Shown: piece by piece, positions 21,816 through 62,318 of the stretch
Position numbering within the stretch: position 1 is the first letter of the stretch
Layout: the number at the start of each line of letters is the position of its first letter
Made by a program: the position numbers and the translations under genes
Notes under the pieces: generated by a model
The model's database searches: none
What the model was told of the DNA's origin: nothing
The model's input: only the letters and a program-made list of their open reading frames with translations
Assembly (NCBI RefSeq): GCF_029948125.1
Contig: NZ_JASAMB010000001.1
Location: 186,001-250,000, forward strand
DNA: 64,000 bases
Source: Catellatospora sp. KI3
GTDB lineage: Bacteria > Actinomycetota > Actinomycetes > Mycobacteriales > Micromonosporaceae
Reading direction: 5' to 3'

Positions 21816-22682
21816 ATGGCCGGTGAGGCCGCAGCGGGGCTGGTCACGGCGGCCGTGCGCAGGTCCGTGGCGCAGATCCTGACCCACGAGCCGCTGGTAC
21901 GGCTGGACGCGCCGCTGCCCGGCGGGGACTCCCCGGTGCACCGGATGCGGGTCGGCTGCCGTCGGCTGCGCTCGGATCTGCGTACCTTCGCACCGCTGCT
22001 GGACCAGCGCTGGTCCAGCCCGCTGCGCGCCGAACTGCGCTGGCTGGCCGGGCTGCTCGGCGGTGCCCGCGACGCCGAGGTGCAGCGGGCCCGGCTCTGG
22101 TCGACCGCGGCCGCCGATCCGGCGCACCCGCTGGACCCGGCCGACGTGGCGGCCCTGGACAGGCTGCTGGCGGCCCGGCGGGCGGCCGCCTACGACGAGG
22201 TGCTGGCCGGGCTGGACACCGCCCGGTACGCGGCGCTGGCCGAGCGGCTGGCCGCCGCGAGCGCGCACGTCCCGCTGTCCGACGCCGCGTTCGTGCCGGT
22301 CAGCCCGGCGAAGTCGGTCCGGCGCCCGCTGCGCCACCTGCGCCGCGGCCGCCACGGTGCCCCCGCCGCCCGGGACCTGACCGCCTCCTCGCCCGATGTG
22401 GACTGGCACGGCGTACGCATCAGCGCCAAGCGCGCCCGCTACGCCGCGGAGGCCGCCGGACTCCGCCGCCGCGCCAGGGTGCTCGCCGAGCTGCAGGACC
22501 TGCTCGGCGAGCACCAGGACGCCGTCGTCGCCGCGGCACTGTGGCAGCGGCTGGGGCGCGAGCATGGCGCGCTGGCGGTGGCGTGCGGGCGCCTCGCGGA
22601 GCGCGAGTTCGCCGCCGCCCGCGCCGTCCGCACCCGCTACCTGCGTAAGGAAGGGACCCTTCTTATCGCTTTCCGTAGGTGA
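21816..22682 (+). CDS. CHAD domain protein (polyphosphate-binding)
   Basis: 288 residues of the alpha-helical CHAD domain, rich in conserved His, Arg and Lys (PVHRMRVGCRRLRSDLRTF; WHGVRISAKRARYAAEA; LAELQDLLGEHQDAVVAA). CHAD domains bind polyphosphate granules, which fits the position directly after ppk. The last residues (RKEGTLLIAFRR) and the stop codon are encoded by repeat family B copy 1, so the natural C-terminus was replaced or extended by the repeat. Confidence 0.88.
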   Translation: MAGEAAAGLVTAAVRRSVAQILTHEPLVRLDAPLPGGDSPVHRMRVGCRRLRSDLRTFAPLLDQRWSSPLRAELRWLAGLLGGARDAEVQRARLWSTAAADPAHPLDPADVAALDRLLAARRAAAYDEVLAGLDTARYAALAERLAAASAHVPLSDAAFVPVSPAKSVRRPLRHLRRGRHGAPAARDLTASSPDVDWHGVRISAKRARYAAEAAGLRRRARVLAELQDLLGEHQDAVVAAALWQRLGREHGALAVACGRLAEREFAAARAVRTRYLRKEGTLLIAFRR

Positions 22683-22697
22683 AGGGACCCTTCCTAA
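22646..22697 (+). repeat. Palindromic repeat family B, copy 1 (inside the CHAD gene end)
   Basis: Two short dyads, GAAGGGACCCTTC, are separated by an asymmetric spacer that contains TTATCGCTTTCCGTAG. The arms can also pair with each other. It overlaps the last 12 codons and stop of the CHAD gene and lies between it and the convergent doxX gene. Other copies are at 36130, 52443, 55203, 61086 and 62266. Confidence 0.92.
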
Positions 22698-22725
22698 CCG
22701 CCGGAGGCGGGCGTGGCCGCAGCCG

Positions 22726-23085
22726 TCAGAAGCGGCCGACGGCGACGAAGACGGCCAGCGCGGCCAGCACGATGTTGAACACGATGGCCGGGTACTCCTT
22801 GCGGCGCAGGTGCGCCAGGGCGGCGCCGACCATCACGGCGGCCAGGGCGACGGCGGCGATGGGGGTCAGCACCGGCGCGATCCCGGTGGCCCACGGCGCG
22901 ATCAGGCCGATGCCGCCGAGTATCTCGCTGACGCCGATGAGCTTGACCATGCCGGCCGAGTAGTCGTCGACCCAGTTGAGGTTCTTGGCGCGCAGCGCCT
23001 CCTTGGGCTGGGTGGCCTTCAGCAGGCCGGCGGCCAGGAAGGCCAGGCCGAGCAGGATCTGCACGATCCAAAGGGCGATGTTCAC
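22726..23085 (-). CDS. DoxX family membrane protein
   Basis: 119 residues with four transmembrane helices (ALWIVQILLGLAFLAAGLLKA; MVKLIGVSEILGGIGLIAPWA; VLTPIAAVALAAVMVGAALAHL; IVFNIVLAALAVFVAVG), the layout of the DoxX/SURF4-like family. The function of single-gene DoxX proteins is unclear; some act in redox stress complexes. GTG at 23085 has GGAGAG 5 bases upstream. It is divergent from a TetR regulator that may control it. Confidence 0.82.
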   Translation of the reverse strand: MNIALWIVQILLGLAFLAAGLLKATQPKEALRAKNLNWVDDYSAGMVKLIGVSEILGGIGLIAPWATGIAPVLTPIAAVALAAVMVGAALAHLRRKEYPAIVFNIVLAALAVFVAVGRF

Positions 23086-23179
23086 AGGGGCTCTCCTAAA
23101 CGGTGGATCTCCTCCACTTACTGCTCCGGGACGGTAGCACCAACCGGAGGCCGGCCTCCAGTCCTGTACCCTGGTGATC

Positions 23180-23842
23180 ATGGAGAGCAATCCGCTGCGC
23201 GCCGACGCCGCCCGCAACCGCGAGCGCATCGTCACCGCCGCCTGCGAGCTGTTCGCCGAGCGGGGGCTGGACGTGCCGCTGGAGGAGGTCGCGGGGCGGG
23301 CCGGGGTCGGCATCGCCACGCTGTACCGCCGCTTCCCCACCCGCGACGAGCTGACGGCCGCCGCGGCGAGCACGAAGATCGAGCAGTACGAGCAGGCGCT
23401 GCGCGAGGCCCGGACCGCCCCCGACGCCTGGACCGGCTTCAGCGCGTACGTCACCGCGGTCTGCGCCATGCAGGCGGCCGACGGCGGACTGGCCGATGTG
23501 CTCACCATGAGCTTCCCCGGTGCGCGGGAGTTCGAGCAGCGCCGGATCGCGCTGCACCGCGGCTTCACCGAACTCGTGGCGGCCGCCAAGGCCGAGGGCA
23601 CCCTGCGCGAGGACTACGTGGCCGAGGATCTGCCGCTGCTGCTGATGGCCAACGCCGGGGTGCTGCGCGGCACCGCCGGGGCCGCCCCGAAGGCGTGGCA
23701 GCGACTGGTGGCCTACCTGCTGCAGGCGTTCCGGGCCGGGGACCGGGTCGATCCCCTGCCCGCGCCGCCGACCCCGCGCCAGACGTACCGCGCCATGCTG
23801 CGCATCTCCGGCTGCCAGGGCAGATCCCAGCCGCCGCGGTAG
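23180..23842 (+). CDS. TetR family transcriptional regulator
   Basis: 220 residues. The N-terminal helix-turn-helix covers about residues 10-56 (RNRERIVTAACELFAERG, VAGRAGVGIATLYRRFPTRDEL), followed by an all-helical ligand domain. ATG at 23180 is preferred to the in-frame GTG at 23174. The gene lies divergently next to doxX with a 94-bp gap, the usual layout for autoregulation and control of the neighbour. The ligand is unknown. Confidence 0.88.
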   Translation: MESNPLRADAARNRERIVTAACELFAERGLDVPLEEVAGRAGVGIATLYRRFPTRDELTAAAASTKIEQYEQALREARTAPDAWTGFSAYVTAVCAMQAADGGLADVLTMSFPGAREFEQRRIALHRGFTELVAAAKAEGTLREDYVAEDLPLLLMANAGVLRGTAGAAPKAWQRLVAYLLQAFRAGDRVDPLPAPPTPRQTYRAMLRISGCQGRSQPPR

Positions 23843-23852
23843 CGGCACGGAA

Positions 23853-27473: not shown

Positions 27474-27498
27474 CGACCTAGACCCCCGGCGCCTTTTC

Positions 27499-27560
27499 GT
27501 GCAGTTTCGGGGAGAGTGCAGCAATCCGGCCCAGGATTCCCGCACTCTCCCCGAAACTGC
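27499..27560 (+). repeat. Palindromic repeat family C, copy 1
   Basis: GTGCAGTTTCGGGGAGAGTGC pairs with its inverted copy around a 22-base spacer that contains CCAGGATTCC. It lies 25 bp after the IclR stop. Other copies are at 29529 and 38070. The conserved spacer gives the element an orientation, here following the plus-strand gene. Confidence 0.92.
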
Positions 27561-31920: not shown

Positions 31921-31953
31921 CGGGCGGGTGGGAGACGGTGTGCGAGTGGCCGG

Positions 31954-34368: not shown

Positions 34369-36123
34369 ATGACCGCCACGCTGCGTCTCGCTCTCGCCCA
34401 GGTCAACCCCACGGTCGGCGATATCGCCGGCAACGCCGCGCTGGTGCGCGAGTGGTCCGCCCGCGCCGCCGAGGCCGGTGCCCACCTGGTCGCGTTCCCC
34501 GAGATGATGCTGACCGGCTACCCGGTCGAGGACCTGGTGTTCCGCCAGTCGTTCGTGGACGCCTCCCGGGAGGCGCTGGACCGCCTGGCCGCCGACCTGG
34601 CCGCCGACGGCCTCGGCGAGCTGGCCGTGGTCGTGGGCTACCTCGACGCCGACGGCCCGGCCCGCCTCGGTGCCGACAGCACGTCGGCCACCGGCCCGCG
34701 CGACTCGCTGGCGCTGCTGCACCGGGGTACGGTCGCGGCCCGCTACGACAAGCACCACCTGCCCAATTACGGCGTCTTCGACGAGGACCGCTACTTCGTG
34801 CCCGGCGACACCCTCACCGTGGTGCGGCTGGAGTGGGCCGACGGCAGCCAGGCCGACGTCGCGCTGACCATCTGCGAGGACATCTGGCAGGCGGGCGGGC
34901 CGTTCGCGGTCGCCGCCGCCGCCCGGGTCGGGCTGGTCGTCAACATCAACGGCTCGCCGTACGAGCTGAACAAGGACGACGTGCGGCTGCCGCTGGTGGC
35001 GCGGCGGGCCGCGGAGGCCAACGCGCCGGTGGCGTACGTCAACATGATCGGCGGGCAGGACGAGCTGGTCTTCGACGGCGACTCCATGATCGTGGCCGCG
35101 GACGGGACGCTGCTGGCCCGCGGGGCGCAGTTCGACCCGGCACTGCTCGTACACGACCTGCAGCTGCCCGAGGCGGACCCGGACGCGCCCACCGGCGACC
35201 TGGGCGCGATGAAGGCCGCGCGGCACCTGGTGCGCACGAACTGGGGCGCCCCGGTCGGCCCGCCCGCCGACGCCGGCATCGCCGACCGCCTCGCCGACGA
35301 GGCCGAGGTGTGGCAGGCCCTCGTCCTCGGCCTGCGCGACTACGTACGCAAGAACGGCGCCAAGTCGATCCTGCTCGGCCTGTCCGGCGGCATCGACTCC
35401 TCGGTGGTGGCCGCGATCGCGGTCGACGCCCTCGGCGCCGAGCACGTCGTCGGCGTCTCCATGCCCAGCGGCCACTCCTCGCAGCACTCGCGCGACGACG
35501 CCGCCGAGATGGCGCAGCTGACCGGCCTGGACTACCGGGTCGAGCCGATCCAGCACATGGTCGACTCGTTCCTGTCCAACCTGAACCTGTCCGGCCTGGC
35601 CGTGGAGAACCTGCAGGCCCGGGTGCGCGCGGTCATCCTGATGGCGCTGTCCAACCAGGAGGGCCACCTGGTCCTCACCACCGGCAACAAGAGCGAGCTG
35701 GCCGTCGGCTACTCCACCCTGTACGGCGACTCGGTCGGCGCCTTCAACCCGCTCAAGGACGTGCCGAAGACGCTGGTCTGGAAGCTGGCCCGGTGGCGCA
35801 ACACCGTCTCCCCCGTGATCCCGGTCAGCTCGATCGAGAAGCCGCCCAGCGCCGAGCTGCGGCCCGGCCAGCTAGACACCGACTCGCTGCCGCCGTACGA
35901 GCAGCTCGACGCGATCGTGGCGGGGTACGTCGACGGCGACCAGGGGCGTGACGAGCTGCTGGCCGCTGGGCACGACCAGGCGCTGGTGGACCGGATCCTG
36001 CGGCTGATCGACGGGGCGGAGTACAAGCGGCGGCAGTCGGCGCCTGGCACCAAGATCTCGTTCAAGTCGTTCGGGCGCGATCGGCGCCTGCCCATCACCA
36101 ACCGCTGGCGCGAGTCGCGCTGA
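34369..36123 (+). CDS. nadE: Glutamine-dependent NAD+ synthetase
   Basis: The last step of NAD+ synthesis with glutamine as nitrogen donor. 584 residues: the N-terminal nitrilase-type amidase has its Glu-Lys-Cys triad in FPEMMLTGYP, YDKHHLPNYGVFDE and LTICEDIWQ. The C-terminal synthetase has the P-loop LGLSGGIDSSVVAAIAVDALG and TGNKSELAVGYSTLYGD. ATG at 34369 fits the family start MTATLRLALAQVNP. Repeat B copy 2 follows after 6 bp. Confidence 0.97.
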   Translation: MTATLRLALAQVNPTVGDIAGNAALVREWSARAAEAGAHLVAFPEMMLTGYPVEDLVFRQSFVDASREALDRLAADLAADGLGELAVVVGYLDADGPARLGADSTSATGPRDSLALLHRGTVAARYDKHHLPNYGVFDEDRYFVPGDTLTVVRLEWADGSQADVALTICEDIWQAGGPFAVAAAARVGLVVNINGSPYELNKDDVRLPLVARRAAEANAPVAYVNMIGGQDELVFDGDSMIVAADGTLLARGAQFDPALLVHDLQLPEADPDAPTGDLGAMKAARHLVRTNWGAPVGPPADAGIADRLADEAEVWQALVLGLRDYVRKNGAKSILLGLSGGIDSSVVAAIAVDALGAEHVVGVSMPSGHSSQHSRDDAAEMAQLTGLDYRVEPIQHMVDSFLSNLNLSGLAVENLQARVRAVILMALSNQEGHLVLTTGNKSELAVGYSTLYGDSVGAFNPLKDVPKTLVWKLARWRNTVSPVIPVSSIEKPPSAELRPGQLDTDSLPPYEQLDAIVAGYVDGDQGRDELLAAGHDQALVDRILRLIDGAEYKRRQSAPGTKISFKSFGRDRRLPITNRWRESR

Positions 36124-36129
36124 GCGCGG

Positions 36130-36181
36130 TAAGGAAGGGACCCTTCTTATCGCTTTACATAGAGGAAGGGCCCCTTCTTCA
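36130..36181 (+). repeat. Palindromic repeat family B, copy 2
   Basis: Same layout as copy 1: TAAGGAAGGGACCCTTCTTATCG, spacer ending ACATAGAG, then GAAGGGCCCCTTCTTC. It starts 6 bp after the nadE stop, in nadE orientation, before panB. Confidence 0.92.
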
Positions 36182-36298
36182 CTCCTGCCGCAGTGAAATT
36201 CTGCACTGAACCCTGACATCGGCCGTTCAACAGGTGGAAACATCCTCCTCAGAGACCCGGGGACCGCGAGCGCGGCCTCGAGGTGAGAGGAGACAGTG

Positions 36299-50946: not shown

Positions 50947-51924
50947 ATGGGACACGACCACGCCGAGCACGCCCACGGGCACGGCGGCCACGCGCACGGC
51001 GTGTCGGCCGACGCCGACCGGCGCTGGCTGAGCATCGCGCTCGCCCTGATCCTCGGGTTCATGGCCGTCGAGGTCGTCGTCGGCCTGCTCGCCGACTCGC
51101 TCGCCCTGCTGTCCGACGCCGCGCACATGCTCACCGACGCCGCCGCGATCGTGCTGGCCCTGGTGGCGATGCGCCTGGCCGCCCGCCCGCCCCGCGGCGG
51201 CTACACGTACGGGCTCAAGCGCGCCGAGATCCTGTCCGCCCAGGCCAACGGCATCACCCTGCTGCTGCTGGCCGCCTGGCTGGCGTACGAGGCGATCGGG
51301 CGGCTCATCGACCCGCCGGCCGTGCGCGGCGGGGCGGTGCTGGTCACCGCCATCGCGGGCATCGGCGTGAACCTGGTCGCCGCCTGGTGCCTGTCCCGGG
51401 CCAACCGGGCCAGCCTCAACATCGAGGGCGCGTTCCAGCACATCCTGAACGACCTGTTCGCCTTCATCGCCACCGCGGTCGCGGGCCTCGTCGTGCTCAC
51501 CACCGGCTTCAACCGGGCCGACGGCATAGCCTCGCTGGCCGTCGTCGTGCTGATGGTCAAGGCGGGCCTGGAGCTGCTCGCCGCCTCCGGCCGCATCCTG
51601 CTCGAAGCCGCCCCGGCCGGGCTCAGCCCCGACGCGCTCGGCGCGGAACTGGCCGGCGTCGACGGCGTGGTCGAGGTGCACGACCTGCACGTCTGGCAGG
51701 TGACCTCGGGCTACCCGGCCCTGTCGGCGCACATCCTGGTCCGGCCGCACGGCGACTGCCACGCCGTGCGCCGCGAGGTGGAGGGGCTGCTGCGCGGGCG
51801 GCACCACATCGCGCACACCACGCTGCAGGTCGACCACGCCGACGACCACGACACCCCGGCCGCGATCGCGGCCGCCCACTGCGCCGACCCGCACGGCGCC
51901 GTCTACCGCCCGCCGAACGCATAA
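50947..51924 (+). CDS. Cation diffusion facilitator (CzcD/ZitB type) metal exporter
   Basis: 325 residues. A His-rich N-terminus (HDHAEHAHGHGGHAHG), six membrane helices, the Zn-site motifs DAAHMLTDAAA in helix 2 and HILNDLFAF in helix 5, and a cytoplasmic ferredoxin-like C-terminal domain with VHDLHVWQVTSGYPALSAH and ending HCADPHG. It probably exports zinc or a related divalent cation by proton antiport. Operon with the ArsR repressor. Confidence 0.94.
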   Translation: MGHDHAEHAHGHGGHAHGVSADADRRWLSIALALILGFMAVEVVVGLLADSLALLSDAAHMLTDAAAIVLALVAMRLAARPPRGGYTYGLKRAEILSAQANGITLLLLAAWLAYEAIGRLIDPPAVRGGAVLVTAIAGIGVNLVAAWCLSRANRASLNIEGAFQHILNDLFAFIATAVAGLVVLTTGFNRADGIASLAVVVLMVKAGLELLAASGRILLEAAPAGLSPDALGAELAGVDGVVEVHDLHVWQVTSGYPALSAHILVRPHGDCHAVRREVEGLLRGRHHIAHTTLQVDHADDHDTPAAIAAAHCADPHGAVYRPPNA

Positions 51925-51932
51925 TCAGCGGC

Positions 51933-52436
51933 ATGCCGCACAGTGACCCGCACGTCGTGCACGACAAGCCGGGCCGCATCGCGATGATGCCCCGCCCGGC
52001 CCGCAACGTGAGGCTCGACGACGACCTGGCCCGGCTGCGCTCGGTCCACGGGGTCGACGTCCTGGTCTGCGCGCTGCCCGACGACGAGCTGGAGCTGCTG
52101 GGCATACCCGACGAGGGGGACGCGGTCCGCCGGGCCGGAATCCGGTTCGAGCACTTCCCCATCGGCGACCACGACGTCCCGGAGTTCTGGTCCTACCACG
52201 CCCTCACCGCCCGCCTGGCCGCCGACGTCACCGCCGGGGCGTACGTGGTGGCGCACTGCTGGGCCGGGATCGGGCGGTCGGCGCTCATCGCGGGCGGCAT
52301 CCTCATTCAGCTGGGCATGCCCGCGCAGCAGGCGGTAGACCAGCTGGTGGAGGGGCGGGGGCTGCCCTGCCCGGAGACGCCGGCGCAGCACCGGATCCTC
52401 CTGCGGCTGGCCGAAACGCTCGCCGCCGCCCGCTGA
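51933..52436 (+). CDS. Dual-specificity/tyrosine phosphatase-like protein
   Basis: 167 residues with the cysteine phosphatase loop HCWAGIGRSALIAGG (CX5R, about residue 108) and the general-acid loop candidate FPIGDHDVPEF. ATG at 51933. It lies 8 bp after the CDF gene and may be in the same transcript. Target unknown. Repeat B copy 3 follows after 6 bp. Confidence 0.82.
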   Translation: MPHSDPHVVHDKPGRIAMMPRPARNVRLDDDLARLRSVHGVDVLVCALPDDELELLGIPDEGDAVRRAGIRFEHFPIGDHDVPEFWSYHALTARLAADVTAGAYVVAHCWAGIGRSALIAGGILIQLGMPAQQAVDQLVEGRGLPCPETPAQHRILLRLAETLAAAR

Positions 52437-52442
52437 CCCCCG

Positions 52443-52494
52443 AAAGGAAGGGACCCTTCTTATCGCTTTCCGTAGCAGAAGGGCCCCTTCTTAA
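52443..52494 (+). repeat. Palindromic repeat family B, copy 3
   Basis: AAAGGAAGGGACCCTTCTTATCG, spacer with CTTTCCGTAGCA, then GAAGGGCCCCTTCTTAA. It starts 6 bp after the phosphatase-like stop, same orientation. Confidence 0.92.
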
Positions 52495-52769
52495 CCTGCG
52501 GGTGGCCGTGGCCGGTCGGCGCCGCGGAAAGCCGATGCGGCAGGCGATGGCGCGATAGGTGCACTGTGGAGTGCTTGCGCGACTGCGGATCGCTTTCGCT
52601 ATTTTATGGATTTCGCTCACACATGGGCTTTTTGCGGCGCACAGTGATGTCTGGAGCAGCAGTGCGCGGGATTCGCACCGGTGAACCACGTTCGCCGGGC
52701 AGGCCGGACACCGCTGTTCGCGGTTCCACCGGAGGCATGTCCGGTAGGACACACCCGTGAGGAGGAGCG
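52495..52769. promoter_or_regulatory. Upstream region of the histone H1-like gene
   Basis: A 275-bp gap. An AT-richer patch (CTATTTTATGG near 52600) may hold the promoter, and TGAGGAGGAGC precedes the start codon as a strong ribosome site. Other frames here have no protein character. Confidence 0.45.
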
Positions 52770-53730: not shown

Positions 53731-55137
53731 ATGGCACACCGCCGCCTGACCACCCAGGCCATCGACTTCACTCCCCTGCGCCGTGAGCTGGACCTGCCCG
53801 ACGGGTTCCCGCCCGCGGCGCAGGCGCAGGCCGAGCAGGCCGCGCGGGAGGTGAGGCTGCCCGACACCGACCTCACCGACATCCCGTTCGTGACCGTCGA
53901 CCCGGCCTCGTCGCGCGACCTGGACCAGGCCCTGTGCCTGCTGCGGCGCGACGGCGGCGGCTACCGGGTGCACTACGCCATCGCCGACGTCGCGGCGTAC
54001 GTCACGCCGGGCAGCGCCCTGGAGGCCGAGACCTGGCAGCGCGGGCAGACGGTGTACCTGCCCGACGGCAAGGTGCCGCTGCACCCCGCGGTGCTCAGCG
54101 AGGGTGCGGTGAGCCTGCTGCCCGAGGTGGAGCGGGCCGCGGTGGTGTGGACCGTCGACGTCAGCGCCGACGGCGACACCGAAGCCGTGACGCTGCGGCG
54201 GGCCCGGGTCCGCAGCCGGGCCAAGCTCGCCTACGAGGGCGTGCAGTCCGATGCCGACAGCGGCAAGCTGGCCGAACCGATCGCGCTGCTACCGGAGCTG
54301 GGCAAACTGCTGATCGCGCGGGCGCTCGAACGCGGCGCCATCAACCTGCCCATGCCGGAGCAGGAGATCGAGCCCGACGGCAAGGGCTGGCGGCTCAGCC
54401 TGCGCGCACCGCTGCCCAGCGAGGAGTGGAACGCGCAGATCTCGCTGCTCACCGGCCGGGCCGCCGCCGAGATCATGCTCAAGGGCCGGATCGGCCTGCT
54501 GCGCACCATGCCCGCGCCCGACCCGCACGCCGTGGCGCGGCTGCGCCTGGCCGGGCAGGGCCTGGGCATCGACTGGCCCGACGGGATGACGGTGGGCCAG
54601 GTCATCGCCCGGCTCGACTGCGCCGACCCGAAGGCCGCCGCGTTCGTCGACGAGGCCGCCGAGCTGCTGCGCGGCGCCGGATACACCCCGTTCGCCGGCG
54701 AGGTGCCGGCCGAGCCCGCCCACGCCGCGGTGGCTTCGACGTACGCGCACGTCACCGCCCCGCTGCGGCGACTCGCCGACCGGTACGCCACCGAGGTGTG
54801 CCTGGCCCTGCATGAGGGCCGGGACGTGCCCGCCTGGGCCGCCGAGGCGCTGCCGCAGCTGCCCGGCATCATGACCGGCACCGGCACGGTGGCCTCGGCC
54901 GCCGAGCGCGGCGCGATCGACCTGGTCGAGGCCGTCGTGCTCGCCGACCGGATCGGCGAGACGTTCCCGGCCGCCGTGCTGGACACCAACCACGGCAAGC
55001 CCGGCGGCACGGTGGCCCTGGACGAGCCCGCCGTCCGCGCCCGCTGCGACGGCGACCTGACCGCCGGGGACCGCGTCACCGTGCGGCTGACCACCGCCGA
55101 CCCGGCCAAGCGCCTGGTCCGCTTCGCGCTGGCCTAG
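53731..55137 (+). CDS. RNB-domain 3'-5' exoribonuclease (RNase II/R family), short form
   Basis: 468 residues. The RNB catalytic centre is clear (VTVDPASSRDLDQALCLLRRDGGGYRVHYAIADVAAYV with the acidic cluster) and STYAHVTAPLRRLADRYATEV matches the conserved YAHxTxPxRRYxD block. N-terminal cold-shock domains and the C-terminal S1 domain of RNase II/R are missing, so RNA binding must differ. ATG at 53731. Confidence 0.88.
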   Translation: MAHRRLTTQAIDFTPLRRELDLPDGFPPAAQAQAEQAAREVRLPDTDLTDIPFVTVDPASSRDLDQALCLLRRDGGGYRVHYAIADVAAYVTPGSALEAETWQRGQTVYLPDGKVPLHPAVLSEGAVSLLPEVERAAVVWTVDVSADGDTEAVTLRRARVRSRAKLAYEGVQSDADSGKLAEPIALLPELGKLLIARALERGAINLPMPEQEIEPDGKGWRLSLRAPLPSEEWNAQISLLTGRAAAEIMLKGRIGLLRTMPAPDPHAVARLRLAGQGLGIDWPDGMTVGQVIARLDCADPKAAAFVDEAAELLRGAGYTPFAGEVPAEPAHAAVASTYAHVTAPLRRLADRYATEVCLALHEGRDVPAWAAEALPQLPGIMTGTGTVASAAERGAIDLVEAVVLADRIGETFPAAVLDTNHGKPGGTVALDEPAVRARCDGDLTAGDRVTVRLTTADPAKRLVRFALA

Positions 55138-55202
55138 CCGCCTCCATCGCCTCGCGCCCGCTTCGCCCTCGCCCGGCCACCGCTGCGCGCCGCTACGCGA
55201 GG

Positions 55203-55254
55203 TTAAGAAGGGGCCCTTCTACATCGGATAGCGATAAGAAGGGTCCCTTCCTTA
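55203..55254 (-). repeat. Palindromic repeat family B, copy 4
   Basis: Reverse orientation: TTAAGAAGGGGCCCTTCTACATC, then AGCGATAAGAAGGGTCCCTTCC. It lies between the convergent RNB and RNase H genes, 41 bp after the RNase H stop and oriented with it. Confidence 0.92.
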
Positions 55255-55295
55255 CCTGCGGAGCGCGGCGGCGCGGGCGGGCAGGTGGGGGTTGT

Positions 55296-56405
55296 TCACA
55301 GGTCGTCGAGGTGGGCGGTGTCGTTGACGACGCGCACCGACACGCCGCCGTCAGGCCAGGTGTCCACGATGGACACCCCCGCCGGGTCGAGCAGCAGCCG
55401 GTGCAGGAACGCGTCCGAGGCGGCCAGGGCGTCGCGCAGGATCAGCTTGATCGGTGAGACGTGCGAGACCACGGCCAGCGTGCCGCCCTCGTACTGCGTC
55501 TGCAGCCGGCCGACGACGCCCCGGACCCGCTTGGCCACCTTCTGGAACGACTCGCCGCCGGGCGGGGCGACCGATGTGGACGCCAGCCAGGCCGACAGCT
55601 CGGCGGCGTACTGCTCGCGCACCTCGCCGAAGGTCAGGCCCTCCCACGCCCCGAAGTCGCACTCGATCAGCTCGGGCTCGAGTTCGACCGGCACCCCGCC
55701 CGCCGCCTTGGCGATGGCGCGGGCCGTCGCCTTGCAGCGCTTCAGCGGCGAGCAGACGACCCGGTCCGGCTTCAGCCCGGCGACGCGGCGCGCGGTCGCG
55801 GCCGCCTGCTGCTCGCCGCGCTCGGACAGCGGCACGTCGCCCCGGCCGGAGTAGCGCTTCTGCGCGGTCAGCGGGGTCTCGCCGTGGCGGACCAGGATCA
55901 GCCTGGTCGCGGGGGCGGTGCGCGGCGCCCAGTCCTGCTTCGGCTCGGTCACCGCGACGGCCGTGGCGACCGCCGCGTCGTGCTCGATGACGGCGCCGCC
56001 GGCCGCTGCGGCGTCCATGGCCGCGTTCGCCAGGGCGTCGGCGGCACGGTTGCGCTCGCGCGGGATCCAGCCGTAGGTGACCTGGTCGAACCTGCGTACC
56101 AGCGTCGCCGCCTGGGCCGCCAGCGGCCGCAGGCCCTGGTGCTTGATCTGCCAGCGGCCCGACATCTGCTCGACCACCAGCTTGGAGTCCATCCGCACCT
56201 CGACCAGGGTCGCGCCGAGTTCGGCGGCGGCCTCCAGCCCGGCGATGAGCCCCCGGTACTCGGCGACGTTGTTGGTGGCGACGCCGATCGCGGCGGCCCG
56301 CTCGGCCAGCACCTGGCCGCTGGCCGCGTCCCGGACCACCGCGCCGTATCCGGCCGGGCCGGGGTTGCCGCGGGCGCCCCCGTCCGCCTCCACCACGACC
56401 CGCAT
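55296..56405 (-). CDS. Bifunctional RNase HI / histidine-type acid phosphatase
   Basis: 369 residues. Residues 1-140 are RNase HI (EADGGARGNPGPAGYGAVV, NNVAEYRGLIAGLEAA, RMDSKLVVEQMSGRW, RNRAADALANAAMDAA: the DEDD residues are present). Residues 165-365 are a phosphoglycerate-mutase-like phosphatase with LVRHGETPLTAQKRYSG and VVSHVSPIKLI. Mycobacterial homologues combine RNase H and alpha-ribazole phosphatase (CobC-like) activity. ATG at 56405 follows the mycobacterial start; a GTG at 56411 overlaps the upstream stop. Confidence 0.93.
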   Translation of the reverse strand: MRVVVEADGGARGNPGPAGYGAVVRDAASGQVLAERAAAIGVATNNVAEYRGLIAGLEAAAELGATLVEVRMDSKLVVEQMSGRWQIKHQGLRPLAAQAATLVRRFDQVTYGWIPRERNRAADALANAAMDAAAAGGAVIEHDAAVATAVAVTEPKQDWAPRTAPATRLILVRHGETPLTAQKRYSGRGDVPLSERGEQQAAATARRVAGLKPDRVVCSPLKRCKATARAIAKAAGGVPVELEPELIECDFGAWEGLTFGEVREQYAAELSAWLASTSVAPPGGESFQKVAKRVRGVVGRLQTQYEGGTLAVVSHVSPIKLILRDALAASDAFLHRLLLDPAGVSIVDTWPDGGVSVRVVNDTAHLDDL

Positions 56406-56407
56406 GG

Positions 56408-57148
56408 TCACAGGCCCGATTCGTGGGTGCGCACCATGATCCGGCGGCACTCCTCGCAGCGGACGACCTCGTCGGGCGCGGCCGTCTTGACCCGGTTGCG
56501 GTCGGCGCCGAACAGCTCCAGGCGGCAGCCGCCGCAGCGGCCGTGCTGCACCAGGGCGGCACCGAGCCCGCCGGACTGCTCCCGGATCTTGTCGTACAGC
56601 TGGACCAGCTCAGCCGGGAGGTCGGCGGCGAGCGGACCGCGGGCGGTCTGCTTCCACTGCGCCTCCTTGTCGATCTCGGCGACGGTCTTGTCCCGGCGCT
56701 GCTCGGTGGCGATGCGGGTGTCGCGGGCGACGCCGATGCGCTCGTCCACCCCGTCGAGCACCGACTGCGCCGACTCGCGCTTCTCCATCAGCTCCAGCTC
56801 GGCGTCCTCGAGCTCGGACTGGCGCCGGGTCAGCGAGGCGATCTCGTGCTCAAGCGCGCTCAGCTCACGGGCGGGCAGCCGGCCGTCGTCGAGGCGCTGC
56901 TGGTCCTTGGCCCGGCGCTGGCGGACGGTGTCGACCTCGCGCTCCAGCTTGGTGATGTCGCGGTCCAGGTCGTCGACGTCGACCTCGGCGCGGACCCGCT
57001 CGTCCTCCAGCCGGCTGACGACCTTGGTAAGCGCGTCCAGCTCGGCGAGCTCGGGCAGCGTCCGGCGGCGGTGCGCCAGCTGCTGCAGCGTGGTGTCGAT
57101 CGCCTGCAGGTCGAGCAGCCGCTGCTGGTCCTTCGGGTCGGCCTTCAT
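56408..57148 (-). CDS. Coiled-coil C4 zinc-ribbon protein
   Basis: 246 residues: a long antiparallel coiled coil (about residues 10-170, for example LTKVVSRLEDERVRAEVDVDDLD) and a C-terminal zinc ribbon with CGGC and CEEC. It matches the actinobacterial family encoded between nif3-like and rnhA-like genes. It probably works as a nucleic-acid or protein chaperone; the exact role is uncertain. ATG at 57148 is preferred to the GTG-region start at 57199, which overlaps the Nif3 gene. Confidence 0.88.
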   Translation of the reverse strand: MKADPKDQQRLLDLQAIDTTLQQLAHRRRTLPELAELDALTKVVSRLEDERVRAEVDVDDLDRDITKLEREVDTVRQRRAKDQQRLDDGRLPARELSALEHEIASLTRRQSELEDAELELMEKRESAQSVLDGVDERIGVARDTRIATEQRRDKTVAEIDKEAQWKQTARGPLAADLPAELVQLYDKIREQSGGLGAALVQHGRCGGCRLELFGADRNRVKTAAPDEVVRCEECRRIMVRTHESGL

Positions 57149-57195
57149 AGGGCACTCCTTCTCTTGATCAGCGCTCTGCCGGGCAAGCACCGTGC

Positions 57196-58011
57196 TCACG
57201 TGGCAGGGTCAAGTGTCGCGCAGGCGTGGAACCGGAACGGATCGGTGTTCGCGTCGGAGACGATGATCTCAAGTCCGGTCCGGCTGCGCAGCCAGGCGGC
57301 CAGTGGTGTCAGCCAGGGCGCCTCGGTGGCGTAGTGACCGGCGTCCACCAGCGCGGGACCACCCTCGGCCAGGTGCTCGGAGACGCGGTGGTGCTTGAGG
57401 TCGGCGGTGAGGTAGACGTCGACGCCCGCGGCGACCGCGTCGGGGATGAAGCTGTCGCCCGAACCGCCGCAGACGGCGACGGTCCGCACGATCCGCGCGG
57501 GGTCGCCGCTGACCCGGACGCCCCAGCTCGCCACGGGCAGCGCGGTTGCGGCGAGGTGGGCGAACTCGCCCAGCGTCATCGGGTTGATCCGGCCGATCCG
57601 CCCGGCGCCCCGGCCGTCCTCGGTCGGGCGCAGCGGGCGCAGGTCGGTCAGGCCGAGCCGGGTCGCGAGCGCGTCGCTGACCCCGGGGTTGGCCACGTCG
57701 GCGTTGGTGTGCGCGACGAACAGGCCGACCCTGTTCTCGATCAGGTCGTGCAGGATGCGGCCCTGGTAGTCGACGGCGGCCACCGAGGAGACGCCCGACA
57801 GCAGCAGCGGGTGGTGCGCGATGATCATGTCGGCGCCCAGGTCCAGGGCCTGCGCGACGGTCTCGGGCAGCACGTCGACCACGGTCAGCACTCGGGTGAC
57901 GGGGTGCTCGGGCCGGCCGGCCACGAGGCCCACCCGGTCCCACGGCTCGGCCCAGCCGGGCGGGAACTCTTCATCGAGCAATCGCACGAACGAGGCGACA
58001 GTCCAGCTCAC
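57196..58011 (-). CDS. Nif3-like dinuclear metal centre protein
   Basis: 271 residues of the Nif3/YbgI/DUF34 family. Metal-binding histidines are seen in MIIAHHPLLLSGV, FVAHTNADVA and the C-terminal DAGHYATEAPW; AVCGGSGDSFIPDAVAAGVDVYLTADLKHH is the second family block. Members form toroidal hexamers; some have GTP cyclohydrolase-like activity, but the function is not settled. GTG start at 58011. Confidence 0.93.
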   Translation of the reverse strand: MSWTVASFVRLLDEEFPPGWAEPWDRVGLVAGRPEHPVTRVLTVVDVLPETVAQALDLGADMIIAHHPLLLSGVSSVAAVDYQGRILHDLIENRVGLFVAHTNADVANPGVSDALATRLGLTDLRPLRPTEDGRGAGRIGRINPMTLGEFAHLAATALPVASWGVRVSGDPARIVRTVAVCGGSGDSFIPDAVAAGVDVYLTADLKHHRVSEHLAEGGPALVDAGHYATEAPWLTPLAAWLRSRTGLEIIVSDANTDPFRFHACATLDPAT

Positions 58012-58020
58012 CCGGACAGC

Positions 58021-58620
58021 CTAGGGGGTCACCCGCCCGCCCGGCGCGGCGGTCGCGGACAGCGCCTCGTCGACGGCGCGCAGGGCCAGCTCCCACGGGA
58101 ACTCGTGGCGCATCGCGTCGCCGTTGCCCGGCTCCGGCAGGGCCAGCACCTCGTCGCCGTAGAGCACGCGCACGCCCCAGCTCCGCAGGCGGGACAGGTT
58201 CTCCTGGAACATCGGGTGCCGGGCCATCGCCCCGTTGGTGTAGGGGAAGGCGACGATGGGCAGGCCCTTGCCGTACCCCTCGATGAGCAGGCCGAGCGGG
58301 AGCGTGTCGGCGATGCCCGCGGCCCACTTGTTCACGGTGTTGACCGTCGCCGGGGCCACCACCAGCGCGTCCGCCGGCGGCAGCACGTCGGGGTCGCCGG
58401 GGTTCTTGAAACCGGTGCGCACCGGGTGGCCCGTCTGGGCGGCCAGCGCCGGGATGTCGAGGAACTTGCGCCCGTCAGGGGTGGCCACCACGCACACGTC
58501 GTAGCCGCGCCGCTGGGCCAGGTCCACGAGCCGGCCGACGTCGCGGGCCACCGGCGAGCCGCAGACCAGCACGTACAGCACCGGCCGCGGCCGGTCGTCG
58601 GCCGACGCCGCCTCGCTCAT
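58021..58620 (-). CDS. Flavoprotein (PPC decarboxylase-like HFCD family)
   Basis: 199 residues with a flavodoxin-like fold: VLVCGSPVARDVGRLVDLA, the PASANT-like block ADALVVAPATVNTVNKWAAGIADTLPL, and FPYTNGAMARHPMFQENLSRLRSWG. It resembles Dfp/EpiD-type FMN decarboxylases, but the substrate is unknown. Its start codon follows the XRE regulator stop with no gap, so the two are probably co-translated. An actinobacterial regulator-flavoprotein pairing. Confidence 0.85.
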   Translation of the reverse strand: MSEAASADDRPRPVLYVLVCGSPVARDVGRLVDLAQRRGYDVCVVATPDGRKFLDIPALAAQTGHPVRTGFKNPGDPDVLPPADALVVAPATVNTVNKWAAGIADTLPLGLLIEGYGKGLPIVAFPYTNGAMARHPMFQENLSRLRSWGVRVLYGDEVLALPEPGNGDAMRHEFPWELALRAVDEALSATAAPGGRVTP

Positions 58621-59847
58621 CTAGACCCCCACCCCCATCTGCTCGGCCAGCTCCGCCAGCGCCGCCGTCGGGGTGCCCCGGGTCCGGCGCAGCACGTCGC
58701 TGAGCACCTCGTGCGCGATCGGACGGCAGCGTATCTCGGCCGGGGCGAGCAGGTCGCCCTCCAGCAGCATCTCGCCCGCCTTCTCCACGTCGCCGATCTG
58801 GGTGTAGCCGCGGGCCATGTCCAGGTAGTGGTGGGCGCGGCGCTCGGGCAGCATCGCGTTGAACGCCGCCGGGTCCAGCGCGGAGTGGATGGCCACCGCC
58901 ATGCCGCCCTCGCCCAGCTCGACCGCGGCCGCGGCCCGGTGCACCTGCACGTTGGTGGGGCCGAAGCTGGTCCAGTAGTGGTTGCGGTCGCCGCCCAGCG
59001 CCGTCGCCGCGTCCTGGGCGCCGGTGAGCAGGTCGCGCATGGTGGCGCTGTCGCCGATGCAGGAGGCGGCCATGGCGCCCTGCAGCAGCAGGAAGCCGTA
59101 CACGGACAGGCGGTCGTCGGCGGTGCCGTCGCCGCTCGGGCACAGCCGGTTGGCGATGTTGACGTTGACCTCCAGCGCGGACCGGTGGCGGCCCAGCGCC
59201 CGCAGCGCGTTGGCGACCCGGGTGGTGGCCACCCCGGCCAGCAGCTGGTCGCCCGCCCGCTGGGACACCGCGATGGACCGGTCGGCGGCCAGCCAGGCCA
59301 GGTCGAGTTCGCCGAGCTTGCGCAGCACCGACGAGGCGATCTGGTACACCTGCCCGAGCAGGTGCGCGGCGTCGCGGGTGTCGTCGGTGCCCGCGTACGC
59401 CGTGTCGGCGGCCTGGGCGTCGCGCAGCAGCTTCGGCAGCGCGCGGGCCAGCACGCCGTAGCGGCCGTGCTCCCAGGTCTGCCACGCGTGCTGGGTGGCC
59501 TTGCGCATCTCGGCGATGGGCGGCGGCTCCGGCGGGGCGTAGAAGAACGCGCTGATCTGGTCGTAGCGCTCCAGGGCGGACCGGATCTCGGCGACCTCGA
59601 TCTGGTCGATGCAGTTCAGGCTGTCGGGGCGCCGCTCCGGGTCCTTACCGAGCAGCAGCGCCACGTCCAGCTGGAGCACGTCGGCTATCTCGTACACGAC
59701 GGAGAACTTGTCGAGCCGGCGCACGCCGCGCTCGACCTTGTCCACCCAGCTCTTCGACTTGCCCAGCCGGTCGGCGAAGACCTGCTGGGACATCTTGCGG
59801 CGGTTGCGCCAGTACGACACCCGCCGGCCTATGGGCAGCTCGTCCAT
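58621..59847 (-). CDS. XRE-family regulator with TPR-like C-terminal domain
   Basis: 408 residues. The helix-turn-helix covers about residues 5-62 (GRRVSYWRNRRKMSQQVFADRLGKSKSWVDKVERGVRRL). The remaining 340 residues are helical repeats of TPR type (LGELDLAWLAADRSIAVSQRAGDQLL; MARGYTQIGDVEKAGEML). Such proteins can sense peptides or small molecules. It is divergent from the PrimPol-like gene and abuts the flavoprotein gene. Confidence 0.88.
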   Translation of the reverse strand: MDELPIGRRVSYWRNRRKMSQQVFADRLGKSKSWVDKVERGVRRLDKFSVVYEIADVLQLDVALLLGKDPERRPDSLNCIDQIEVAEIRSALERYDQISAFFYAPPEPPPIAEMRKATQHAWQTWEHGRYGVLARALPKLLRDAQAADTAYAGTDDTRDAAHLLGQVYQIASSVLRKLGELDLAWLAADRSIAVSQRAGDQLLAGVATTRVANALRALGRHRSALEVNVNIANRLCPSGDGTADDRLSVYGFLLLQGAMAASCIGDSATMRDLLTGAQDAATALGGDRNHYWTSFGPTNVQVHRAAAAVELGEGGMAVAIHSALDPAAFNAMLPERRAHHYLDMARGYTQIGDVEKAGEMLLEGDLLAPAEIRCRPIAHEVLSDVLRRTRGTPTAALAELAEQMGVGV

Positions 59848-60077
59848 GTCACAACCCTCCCCTCATCGGGTCTGGGAAACGAGTCGCACAGGCTGTGCGC
59901 CCTCATCCGGTCCGTCACTCGTATCTTCTGTTGCAAGTTGCAGTTAGAAAATGCATCGAGACGTTTGCTTGCTGGACTGTTGTCGATGTAACGAGTGCAT
60001 GCGACCACAGATACGGTTAAGAGCGATGTCGATCTCTTTCCCGTCACGGCCGTACCCGGAAGAGGAGGTCGGACACC
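59848..60077. promoter_or_regulatory. Divergent regulatory region between the XRE regulator and the PrimPol-like gene
   Basis: A 230-bp region that is clearly AT-richer than its surroundings. It has a direct repeat GTTGCA-A-GTTGCA at 59930-59942, a candidate site for the XRE protein. AGAGGAGG precedes the plus-strand start. Confidence 0.5.
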
Positions 60078-60782
60078 ATGCGGTGGCGACACGGACCGTT
60101 CGCCCGGAACCTGCTCCGACACCGGATGCGACGCGCGGCACTGCGCTTCGCCGCCCACGGCTGGGCGGTCACCCCCGGCGGGTACTTCAACGGCCGGCGC
60201 ATGGCCTGCGACCGGGCCACCTGCCTGGCCACCAGCTGCCACCCGGTGCTCACCGACTGGGAGACGCAGTCCAGCACGTTCACCGCGCAGCTCGACGAGT
60301 GGTGGGCCCAGCACCCGCACGCGGTGCTGCTGCCCACCGGGCACACCTTCGACGTGCTGGAGGTCCCGGCACTGCTGGGCACCGCCGCCGTCTGCGGCCC
60401 ACCGCTGGGCAACGCCCGCCGCGTACGCGGACCCGTCGCGGTCACCGCCACCGGCCGGTGGATGTTCCTCATGCGGCCCGGCGCGGCGCTCGCACCCGAA
60501 CTCGACCACCGGGTCGACGTGCTGCGCCACAGCCACGGCTCGTGGATACCCGCCCCGCCGACCGTGCTGCCGGAGGGGCCCGTGCGCTGGCAGGTGTCAC
60601 CCGCACAGGTGAACTGGCACCTACCCGACGCCGAGGAACTGCAGCAGGCGCTCGTCCGCTCGTTGGTCAGTCTGGACGCGTCGTTCCTGGATCTGCCCCT
60701 CACCGCGCGGCGGCGGCTCGCCCCGCCCCCGCGCATCGGTCGCCCGCCGACCATGCAGGCCGCGCTGCGACGCGCCGGCTGA
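60078..60782 (+). CDS. Bifunctional DNA primase/polymerase N-terminal-like protein
   Basis: 234 residues with the actinobacterial Prim-Pol-like outline: ALRFAAHGWAVTPGGYF, a cysteine-rich start MACDRATCLATSCHPV, and WWAQHPHAVLLPTGHTFDVLEVP. The catalytic acidic motif of true AEP primases (DxE/D) is not obvious, and no helicase domain follows, so polymerase activity is uncertain. Strong ribosome site AGAGGAGG. It is likely controlled from the XRE region. Confidence 0.7.
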   Translation: MRWRHGPFARNLLRHRMRRAALRFAAHGWAVTPGGYFNGRRMACDRATCLATSCHPVLTDWETQSSTFTAQLDEWWAQHPHAVLLPTGHTFDVLEVPALLGTAAVCGPPLGNARRVRGPVAVTATGRWMFLMRPGAALAPELDHRVDVLRHSHGSWIPAPPTVLPEGPVRWQVSPAQVNWHLPDAEELQQALVRSLVSLDASFLDLPLTARRRLAPPPRIGRPPTMQAALRRAG

Positions 60783-60884
60783 ACGTCCACACCGGAGCCA
60801 TCCCTCGCCACCACCCCGTGACAGGCAGCACCGATCGACCGCCCAGCAGCGCGGTCGACGGTCGGGGTATCGAGGAGGTCCGAC

Positions 60885-61052
60885 ATGGCAACTGACAACG
60901 TAGAACGGGCCCTGGCACACGTCGAGTCCCAATTCGGGGTCATACGATCGTCATCGGCCCGATGGGCGGGCACACGGCCGTACGGCGCCCGCCCCGGCGG
61001 GTCCCGCCCGAGCGGCACCCGCCCAGCCAGCACCCACCGCCCGGTGCGGTAG
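60885..61052 (+). CDS. Small basic protein, 55 residues
   Basis: GAGGAGG lies 6 bases before ATG at 60885. The product starts MATDNVERALAHVESQFGVI, then is rich in Arg, Gly, Ser, Thr and Pro (RPYGARPGG, RPSGTRPAST, HRPVR) and stops with TAG at 61050-61052. The helical N-terminus and the basic tail could bind nucleic acid or a partner. The ribosome site and spacing are nearly the same as for the PrimPol-like gene 100 bp upstream, which suggests one operon. No family recognised. Confidence 0.55.
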   Translation: MATDNVERALAHVESQFGVIRSSSARWAGTRPYGARPGGSRPSGTRPASTHRPVR

Positions 61053-61085
61053 CGCGCGCCTCGCACTGCGCTCCGCGCCGCGGGG

Positions 61086-61137
61086 GAAGGAAGGGACCCT
61101 TCTTATCGCTTTGCGTAGCAGAAGGGCCCCTTCTTAA
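61086..61137 (+). repeat. Palindromic repeat family B, copy 5
   Basis: GGAAGGAAGGGACCCTTC, TTATCGCTTTGCGTAGCA, then GAAGGGCCCCTTCTTAA. It lies 33 bp after the small ORF stop, oriented with it, and 26 bp from the convergent AbiEi-like stop. Confidence 0.92.
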
Positions 61138-61162
61138 CTCCGCATCTCCGGCGGCGGGCGCG

Positions 61163-62113
61163 TCAGGGCAGGACGCGTACGTCGACTTCGACGCCGGCAC
61201 GGCGTGCCGCAGCCTCGGTGACGATCCGCCGAACCTCGTCCGGCCTACGCTCCACGAACGAGGGCACGAAGTGCAGCACCTGCACACCGACCCGGCCGAG
61301 GATGTTGTGGCGTTCCAGCGTCCGTGCCCAATCCTGCTGGTTGAAGTGGAACTCGCGCGAATCCACCTCGATCGCGAGTGCCGCCTCCGGCAGGTAGCCG
61401 TCCGGCGTCGGCAACGGCGTACCGTCGAGCCGAGCCAGGCGCGGGTTCCACAGCAGGCGACCGGCCAACGCCGGAACCGCCTCCAGCACCTCGCGGGTCA
61501 GCGCCTCGGGCGCCGACCGGGCCCCGCCGACAATCTCCGCCAGCACTCGTCGGACCAGCGCCGTGCGGCTGCGCGCCGCCCGCCGCACCTGCGCGTCGAG
61601 CGCGCCGGGCGACACCTCGAACCGCTGCACAGCCTCTGCCATGACCGCCCGGACCGTACGAAGTTCGCGCAGGTCGCGGCAGGCGTCCACGACCGCGCGG
61701 GCTGGTGAGCACACCCGGTAGAGCTCCGTATGGCGAGCGGACTCGTCGAGTTCCAACGCCCGCCGCACCGCCACGAAGCCGTGCGAGCGCCGGCGTTCCT
61801 CGTGCCGCACGAGCACGTGCACCTGCTCCGAGGAGGGGACCGCGCGGAAGCCGTACCAACTCAGCGCGCTCGTCCCCGTGAGCTGAGCGTTCGGTCCGGC
61901 GTAGAGCGCGGCCGCGATGCGGCGCTGCTCCTCGGTCAGGACCCCGCTGGTCACGCAGTAGATGCCGTTGAGCACGCGCTGCCAGGCGCCACTACGGATG
62001 CGGCGGTAGACGTACATGTCGCTGTGCCCGGCCGCGAGCACCTGCTCCCTGGTCAGCAACTGCCGTTGGCGTACCGCGACGGCGTCGAGCGTCGCGTCGA
62101 GTGCTCGTGTCAT
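61163..62113 (-). CDS. AbiEi-like N-terminus with DUF559/Vsr-like nuclease C-terminus
   Basis: 316 residues. N-terminal winged-helix part with LLTREQVLAAGHSDMYVYRRIRSGAWQRVLNGIYCVTSG, the AbiEi antitoxin-type start, then ALSWYGFR. The C-terminal domain has AIEVDSREFHFNQQDWARTLERHNILGRVGVQVLHF, the D/E-x(n)-D(S)-x-E-x-H order of DUF559/Vsr-type endonuclease folds. Such solitary genes are common in actinobacteria; no toxin partner lies beside it. ATG at 62113. Confidence 0.78.
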   Translation of the reverse strand: MTRALDATLDAVAVRQRQLLTREQVLAAGHSDMYVYRRIRSGAWQRVLNGIYCVTSGVLTEEQRRIAAALYAGPNAQLTGTSALSWYGFRAVPSSEQVHVLVRHEERRRSHGFVAVRRALELDESARHTELYRVCSPARAVVDACRDLRELRTVRAVMAEAVQRFEVSPGALDAQVRRAARSRTALVRRVLAEIVGGARSAPEALTREVLEAVPALAGRLLWNPRLARLDGTPLPTPDGYLPEAALAIEVDSREFHFNQQDWARTLERHNILGRVGVQVLHFVPSFVERRPDEVRRIVTEAAARRAGVEVDVRVLP

Positions 62114-62265
62114 GCCCGGCACGATCGCCGCGCGCCCCAGGCTCCGCCAGCCGCCGCCGACCCCGTCGGTGGACAGCCGGTGGCTTGGGGACGACGCCCG
62201 CCCCCGGTTCTTGATCTGGTATGGCCACAGCCGAGTCCCCCGCCCACCGCCCCAAGCGCCGGACG

Positions 62266-62318
62266 TGAAGAAGGGTCCCTTCTATATCGGAAAGCGATAA
62301 GAAGGGACCCTTCCTTAC
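62266..62318 (-). repeat. Palindromic repeat family B, copy 6
   Basis: Reverse orientation: TGAAGAAGGGTCCCTTCTATATC, then AAGCGATAAGAAGGGACCCTTCC. It starts 7 bp after the ilvE stop and is oriented with ilvE. Confidence 0.92.

Follow-up and report, generated by a model that had tools for sequence, protein, structure and literature searches.

The gene-end repeat and its neighbours

The window analysed here is a 64,000-nt stretch of Catellatospora sp. KI3 (GCF_029948125.1, contig NZ_JASAMB010000001.1, positions 186,001–250,000, forward strand), in which six copies of a short repeat lie at the ends of genes. In window coordinates, the copies and adjoining genes are as follows.

21816..22682, + strand: CHAD-domain gene, whose frame terminates within copy 1
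22645..22698, + strand: copy 1, overlapping the 3′ end of the CHAD ORF; convergent gap
34369..36123, + strand: NAD synthase gene (nadE-like)
36129..36182, + strand: copy 2, 5 nt past the NAD synthase gene stop
51387..52436, + strand: dual-specificity-phosphatase-like domain gene (Pfam CDKN3)
52442..52495, + strand: copy 3, 5 nt past the phosphatase-like gene
55202..55255, − strand: copy 4, 40 nt past the RNase H/His phosphatase gene, between converging genes
55296..56450, − strand: RNase H/histidine phosphatase fusion gene
61085..61138, + strand: copy 5, 32 nt past the end (61052) of a short ORF, between converging genes
62265..62318, − strand: copy 6, 7 nt past the aminotransferase gene; codirectional
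62326..63420, − strand: class IV aminotransferase gene (ilvE-like)

All six copies share the layout GAAGGGNCCCTTC, an 18-nt spacer and a second GAAGGGNCCCTTC, with a fixed length of 44 nt; the dyads start at 22650, 36134, 52447, 55207 (−), 61090 and 62270 (−), each 4 nt higher than the copy coordinate in the first-pass annotation. A scan permitting up to one mismatch found 12 dyads in the window, all perfect, against 0.13 expected (sd 0.37), a count reached in 0 of 100 window shuffles, which confirmed the six copies first described. The spacer of copy 2, TTATCGCTTTACATAGAG, is without the second CG, so that this copy falls outside the set of 144 copies.

The gene identities first assigned (CHAD, nadE, phosphatase, RNase H, small ORF and ilvE) were all borne out. 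A stop codon had been placed upstream of every copy, which held for five (at 5, 5, 40, 32 and 7 nt) but not for the CHAD ORF, which runs into copy 1 and stops at a TGA at 22680–22682. Because genes converge at three of the six copies (22650, 55207 and 61090), either orientation would match some gene there. The gene at 61163–62122 is present in the ORF list and absent from the gene calls, so that the copies at 61090 and 62270 were both filed in one convergent gap, whereas 62270 is truly codirectional.

Genome-wide placement and orientation

Genome-wide, there are 164 exact copies (about 20 per Mb) and none of the reversed control. Placement was scored for 160 of 162 copies, leaving out those with more than two dyad mismatches or an ambiguous direction. 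The 5′ edge of the element lay between −5 and +15 nt from a same-strand stop codon in 100 of these 160, bearing out the closeness to stop codons seen in the window; random intergenic spots gave 8.4 ± 2.7 (maximum 16 in 300 draws). Of the 100 genes that adjoin a copy, 13 terminate at the element's own TAA. The copies avoid coding sequence and promoter gaps, as proposed: 75 are in convergent gaps, 68 in codirectional gaps, 10 in divergent gaps and 7 inside a called gene, and the last two classes may be caller errors, because the home-made gene caller, trained on the same stretches, missed low-scoring genes.

The genome-wide listing of orientations was not random, and the refuting condition set in the first-pass annotation (random orientation, or insertion in coding regions and promoters at background rate) did not come true for the 160 copies. 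Codirectional copies run along the gene direction 51:17 (p 4e-5), convergent copies fit the nearer gene 61:14 (p 4e-8), and in all 11 cases where two copies lie less than 300 bp from one another they face each other. The first-pass annotation had every copy match the gene upstream; the tie to that gene stands, but as a strong bias and not a rule, given the 17 opposed among 68 codirectional copies, together with the divergent and in-gene cases of the gene caller. After subtraction of 54 nt, the codirectional gap is shorter than 30 nt at 2% of 63 element-bearing gene ends versus 42% of 454 without the element, the background gaps being no random sample because they come from 1.2 Mb taken around known copies.

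The bias extends to other species. Among the 96 copies in the named Catellatospora and Micromonospora loci listed, the counts were 22:10 in codirectional gaps (p 0.05) and 36:8 in convergent gaps; a second set of 29 copies in relatives' loci gave 10:3 (p 0.09) and 11:3 (p 0.06), respectively. Congener orthologue loci by themselves gave 5:4 in convergent gaps, a point against the reading favoured below. The relatives' loci comprise at least 90 stretches, of which 80 were used (L285–L294 left out), and many are from C. tritici, that is, G091 itself.

Species dialects and inheritance in place

The exact pattern has no copies in eight of ten congeners and 1 and 74 in the remaining two. Loosened to GAAGGNNNCCTTC, the pattern matches all 11 genomes of the genus at 31–244 copies each (G000, 165; G083, 244; G090, 31; G091, 131; G092, 160), which rules out a patchy repeat left by a recent burst. 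In genus g23 the element is sporadic. Single loose-pattern matches in G037, G047, G058 and G072 are mutually alike and coding-sequence-like.

Species differ in dyad centre, GCA/TGC versus GNC, and the two dyads shift together from one species to another. When the related genomes were compared at the same loci, many copies were found at orthologous places, with other places filled or empty by species. Taking one relative per place, orientation is kept in 26 of 29 orthologous copies, and their spacers are alike at 14.54 of 18 positions versus 13.39 ± 0.27 when shuffled. The orthology count, which in its first version accepted a copy up to 150 nt from the junction, was repeated with tightly bounded gaps: G000 places then held a copy in G091 at 13 of 20 and in G090 at 1 of 9. 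The dialect has switched in place, with C. tritici (G091) in mid-switch, and a relic in G090 documents loss by decay. At one orthologous place a different double-dyad repeat sits instead. Inspection by eye of six aligned places found no target duplication and no precise empty site, although presence/absence differences do exist.

Folding and the RNA-level pattern

The element is predicted to fold into a long hairpin of about 18–19 base pairs and about −31 kcal/mol. Two small hairpins or one large one had been envisaged; both folds are predicted, but the choice is lopsided: in every one of 146 copies, the whole-element fold is more stable than the pair of half-folds by over 3 kcal/mol. That the sense strand folds better holds in 105 of 116 congener copies and fails in this genome, where predicted stability is −31.0 kcal/mol for sense and −30.6 kcal/mol for antisense, with sense lower in 78 and higher in 67 of 146 copies. 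Because the two strands are about equally stable here, the fold itself leaves direction without explanation.

Substitutions in the stem have an RNA-type wobble pattern. On the sense strand of the long stem, centre triplets excluded, the non-Watson–Crick cells are 122 G-U, 36 A-C and 17 other in this genome, 117, 8 and 19 in congeners, and 22, 2 and 1 in genus g23. A-C mismatches at the stem foot (pair −2/45, 34 cells) argue against a strict RNA-pairing rule. Standard pairing of the centre bases N6–N37 occurs in 72 of 155 copies (46.4 ± 4.5 when shuffled), and a mismatch in 83. Among the 91 GCA/TGC copies, arm 1 reads GCA in 91 and arm 2 the complementary TGC in 70, leaving 21 with direct, non-pairing centres. 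Positions 5, 7, 36 and 38 are 97–100% invariant in this genome, with 6 and 37 free. An inner spacer hairpin gained little covariation support beyond shuffles, and the local hairpin-2 pair 30–44 was rejected, being neither Watson–Crick nor G-U in about 48 of 146 copies and without clear covariation.

The canonical intrinsic terminator is matched in its hairpin and not in its T-run: there is no U-tract in the 8 nt past dyad 2 (mean 1.8 T), and a simple terminator scan of 52000–64000 flagged none of four copies. Rfam 15 at gathering score matched nothing in the window beyond RNase P and two tRNAs, and gave no family for the element.

Relation to known systems

To our knowledge, how mRNA 3′ ends are made at terminators without a U-tract in high-G+C actinobacteria is not settled. 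In Neisseria and Haemophilus, pairs of uptake signals double as terminators; such signals occur at much higher density, within coding sequence as well. Like those pairs, the element is a hairpin repeated genome-wide at gene ends and has dialects, as described for Neisseriaceae uptake sequences (PMC3630211); unlike them, it is much rarer, longer and oriented. It also resembles the hairpin-cluster terminators, for which a U-tract is said not to be required, in placing one or two hairpins right past stops at operon ends (PMC8355165); those hairpins are unrelated, whereas the element is one near-invariant sequence family with species dialects.

With Enterobacteria and Pseudomonas REPs, as described in PMC2817692, the element shares a short, high-copy, extragenic palindrome, sometimes near stops, and a species-specific spelling in which stems are kept by paired changes; here, too, the 164 copies are extragenic apart from 7 of 160 in a called gene. 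The REP head is GT(A/G)G adjoining the palindrome (PMC2817692). GTAG occurs within the spacer of many copies, and the 5′ foot reads GTAAG, not GTAG. Unlike RAYT REPs, the element has two self-palindromic dyads in a 44-nt layout, is inherited in place with its direction tied to a gene, and lives in a genome without a Y1/RAYT gene, which rules out RAYT–REP membership. Searches for Y1 (PF01797) gave no match in G000, G083, G090, G091 and G092, and 1–3 in each of the remaining 6 of 11 genus members. By title or abstract opening, no paper describing the element was found, and the dyad letters matched unrelated work only.

Proposed role and alternatives

The stop-side placement and species-specific spelling suggest a gene-end signal read by a trans factor. 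On balance, we lean towards an element that acts in cis at gene ends, as an RNA hairpin that forms or protects mRNA 3′ ends and is read by such a factor. As polymerase passes the stop codon, the first dyad would emerge within about 15 nt and could fold into a small hairpin; with the second dyad transcribed, both arms would pair into the long hairpin, which would set the mRNA 3′ end close past the stop, either as a transcription end or as a block to a 3′–5′ exonuclease, in which case trimming back from a Rho-type stop downstream would halt at the hairpin. Converging genes may share one copy or each have their own, face to face. The copies, their placement and orientation bias, their conservation by place, the dialects and the RNA-type wobble pattern are observed; termination or 3′-end protection is inferred, and so is the reading factor, the latter from dyads that are near-invariant in each genome yet shift jointly from species to species. 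With 164 copies against roughly 7,000 genes (a number estimated from genome size), the element is not the general terminator.

It is rather unlikely that the element acts instead as DNA, each dyad binding a dimeric protein (roadblock, nucleoid or regulator) needed at gene ends. The invariant half-sites of this genome, with their centre base free, fit such a protein, as do arm pairs that are direct as well as inverted and dyads that change in concert; however, the excess of G-U over A-C in the oriented strand is hard to get from a symmetric site, as are the tight stop spacing and gene-direction bias. A REP/MITE-like mobile repeat preferring gene ends and passively inherited, a reading already weakened, seems improbable. 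A copy number varying from 31 to 244 within one genus, sporadic occurrence in genus g23, places filled in one species and empty in another, and the different repeat at one place would suit it. Against it stand the lack of Y1, the sole transposase family searched, in five genomes with 31–244 copies, the kept orientation and spacers of orthologous copies, a G090 relic that shows loss by decay, the absence of target duplications by eye at six aligned places, and non-random orientation and spacing.

We give little credence to a translation-termination device in which a hairpin within about 15 nt would stall the terminating ribosome, by analogy with E. coli REPs near stop codons, for which this effect is on record (PMC12306157): the element-to-stop distance fits, but some copies are 20–60 nt off or reversed, and a single copy shared by two convergent genes can stand at a different distance from each. 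Least probable of all is a role as species tag, on the model of the Neisseria DNA uptake sequence; the dialect-like spelling would fit, but not a density of only about 20 copies per Mb with 143 of 160 copies in convergent or codirectional gaps.

It might further be, though we regard this as doubtful, that the element is a clade-specific, sequence-read 3′-end code, one double-dyad signal marking well over a hundred gene ends in each genome, in which signal and dedicated factor co-evolve, the dialects of whole genomes passing in place from GGGCACC via GGGCCCC to GGGNCCC, and C. tritici standing half-way. Per genome, the element supplies about 160 natural sites for testing, and G090 with its few remaining copies, G091 in mid-switch and orthologous sites that have or lack the element serve as comparison material; with such sites and congeners, termination, stability and factor recognition are directly testable.

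C-rich 3′ coding ends, considered as special to element genes, are here mostly general to transcription-unit ends: C/G is 0.50/0.25 where the element is present, 0.465/0.287 at convergent ends that lack it (gap >80) and 0.36/0.37 where the codirectional gap is <20.

An oriented hairpin element conserved at gene ends

The six copies of an oriented double-dyad repeat reported in the first-pass annotation are all present in the window as described, where 12 dyads were observed versus 0.13 in shuffles. The consensus of 161 copies defines an element of approximately 54 nt (the GAAGGG element) that consists of G-T-A-A-G, dyad 1 (GAAGGGNCCCTTC), an 18-nt spacer (TTATCGCTTTCCGTAGTA), dyad 2 (GAAGGGNCCCTTC) and T-T-A-A-C. 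Across the whole genome (8.2 Mb, 96 contigs) we found 164 double dyads, 144 of which (54 + 90) fit the oriented spacer, and no match to a backward control pattern. Scanning 1.2 Mb of the genome (the window and 100 further stretches) with up to four mismatches allowed yielded 162 copies; because 145 of these were perfect at all 24 fixed dyad letters, degenerate copies are rare. An Rfam search of the window returned no family match for the element.

The element is real, oriented and conserved at gene ends. Using a home-made codon-usage gene caller, we placed 75 of 160 copies in convergent gaps, 68 in codirectional gaps, 10 in divergent gaps and 7 inside called genes; the corresponding totals for all gaps that span 30 nt or more in the same stretches were 165, 381 and 189. 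Copies in codirectional gaps pointed with the genes in 51 cases and against them in 17, and copies in convergent gaps followed the nearer gene in 61 of 75. The 5′ edge was positioned -5 to +15 nt relative to a same-strand stop codon in 100 of the 160 copies, versus 8.4±2.7 for random intergenic positions on a random strand, and the TAA of the element itself served as the stop in 13 of those 100. All 11 pairs of copies less than 300 bp apart were face to face, nine of them in convergent gaps. After subtraction of 54 nt, codirectional gaps were shorter than 30 nt in 2% of 63 with a copy versus 42% of 454 without one; copies almost never sit in operon-like gaps.

The same layout recurs in other species. 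Agreeing and opposing directions numbered 22:10 (codirectional) and 36:8 (convergent) for 96 copies in 80 named loci, that is, Catellatospora or Micromonospora stretches fetched for having the element. For 29 further copies (24 loci from genus g23, 3 from g8 and 2 from congeners) the counts were 10:3 and 11:3, and the 21 agreeing copies started at -4 to +8 nt. Orthologous loci in congeners were few and mixed (7:0 and 5:4).

Species-wise dialects of the dyad centre

Our scans found the element in Micromonosporaceae only, with at least 87 Catellatospora and at least 3 Micromonospora among the named stretches listed with it. The stricter oriented pattern matched the source genome alone among 396 phylum-wide genomes (one other from the family), and the exact pattern was absent or nearly so in 9 of 10 congeners, yet the element stands in orthologous gaps there with a different dyad centre. 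A loose pattern gave 31–244 copies per genome in every one of the 11 genus members; across the family it matched at least once in 93 of 354 genomes, from 10 of 44 genera, a few of these matches probably lying in coding sequence.

We call these species-wise spellings of the centre dialects, old (GCA/TGC) and new (GNC). Only GCA/TGC centres occurred in 91 of 116 congener copies, arm 1 reading GCA in all 91 and arm 2 reading TGC in 70 and GCA in 21. In C. tritici (G091), 100 of 109 copies comprised 29 with both arms old, 56 with both new, 10 mixed and 5 outside these classes; arm 2 had changed first in 9 of the 10 mixed copies. Copies in the source genome are nearly all in the new dialect, the centre base now being free. 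Direction was kept at 26 of 29 orthologous places (one relative per place; 16 of the 29 came from named loci picked for having the element), and spacer likeness in orthologous pairs was 14.54 of 18, versus 13.39±0.27 for shuffled pairs. Because direction is kept, spacers are alike and the relative has the old dialect at 14 of the 26 direction-keeping places, the dialect changed in place. This genome-wide switch is the surprising part of the finding, and it points to a putative reader of the element.

RNA or DNA

The two arms pair together: the whole-element fold was better than the separate halves in 146 of 146 copies (mean -31.0 versus -12.9 kcal/mol). Departures from Watson–Crick pairing in the stem (sense strand, centre triplets left out) were G-U in 122, A-C in 36 and other in 17 cells in the source genome, 117, 8 and 19 in congeners, and 22, 2 and 1 in genus g23; the outermost pair (-2/45) holds almost all A-C cases. 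Centre bases paired in 72 of 155 copies versus 46.4±4.5 when shuffled, an excess that persisted within each main spacer subtype (23/75 versus 15.2±3.0; 40/63 versus 22.0±3.1) and to which shared descent of the copies could contribute. However, more than half of copies have a mismatched centre, a free centre base flanked by fixed half-sites resembles a protein dimer site, and the two RNA strands, sense and antisense, are about equally stable in the source genome. We lean towards an element that works as RNA and is recognised by sequence and shape, most likely an mRNA 3′-end hairpin.

By what the element works like, the closest known systems are REPs and U-less terminators. A RAYT-REP in the strict sense is ruled out, as the source genome has no Y1/RAYT transposase gene, and so is a canonical U-tract terminator, as the T-run after the hairpin is absent.

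Turnover

Among source-genome places whose gap is closely bounded on both sides, a copy with at most two dyad mismatches was present in 13/20 cases in G091, 1/9 in G090, 2/4 in G089, 3/4 in other congeners and 17/22 in named loci (a biased sample); a looser count gave 14/21, 1/11, 5/8, 3/4 and 18/23, respectively. An insert interrupts one G091 copy. Small palindromic inserts are nested in the first dyad of the copies at the places of window 61090 (stretch L154, congener G087) and window 55207 (L146, G091). A relic (GAGGTAAGGAAGGGC) in G090 at one place shows that its copy there was lost by decay. At another, G091 and G089 have a different double-dyad hairpin with TTGCCNGGCAA twice in the position that the GAAGGG element occupies in the source genome, as if gene-end hairpins could replace one another.

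Other repeats and features

Window 10710-10799, 15438-15527, 31833-31922, 37163-37252: second palindromic repeat family (...GACGCTGGCCTATCTAGAGGAC...)
Window 27483-27560, 29513-29590, 38054-38131: third repeat family (GCAGTTTCGGGGAAAGTGC...GCACTTTCCCCGAAACTGC)
Window 21715-21731; L101:2238-2296 (a fetched stretch): fourth double-dyad family, TTGCCNGGCAA
Window 39005-39424: RNase P RNA, bacterial class A

In the 1.2 Mb, the second family occupies 22 places, 14 of them in convergent gaps, with stops typically 40–100 nt away, and the third approximately 41. The third-family arms are quasi-palindromic and mutually complementary, and one copy sits between two facing GAAGGG elements (stretch L130). 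The fourth is again an odd palindrome whose centre is free, its two units lying approximately 30 nt apart, or single in places. In the same sample, the last 40 coding nt of genes are much richer in C than in G where a transcription unit ends (C/G 0.50/0.25 or 0.465/0.287) but not in tight operons (0.36/0.37), a pattern expected of a Rho-type loading region.
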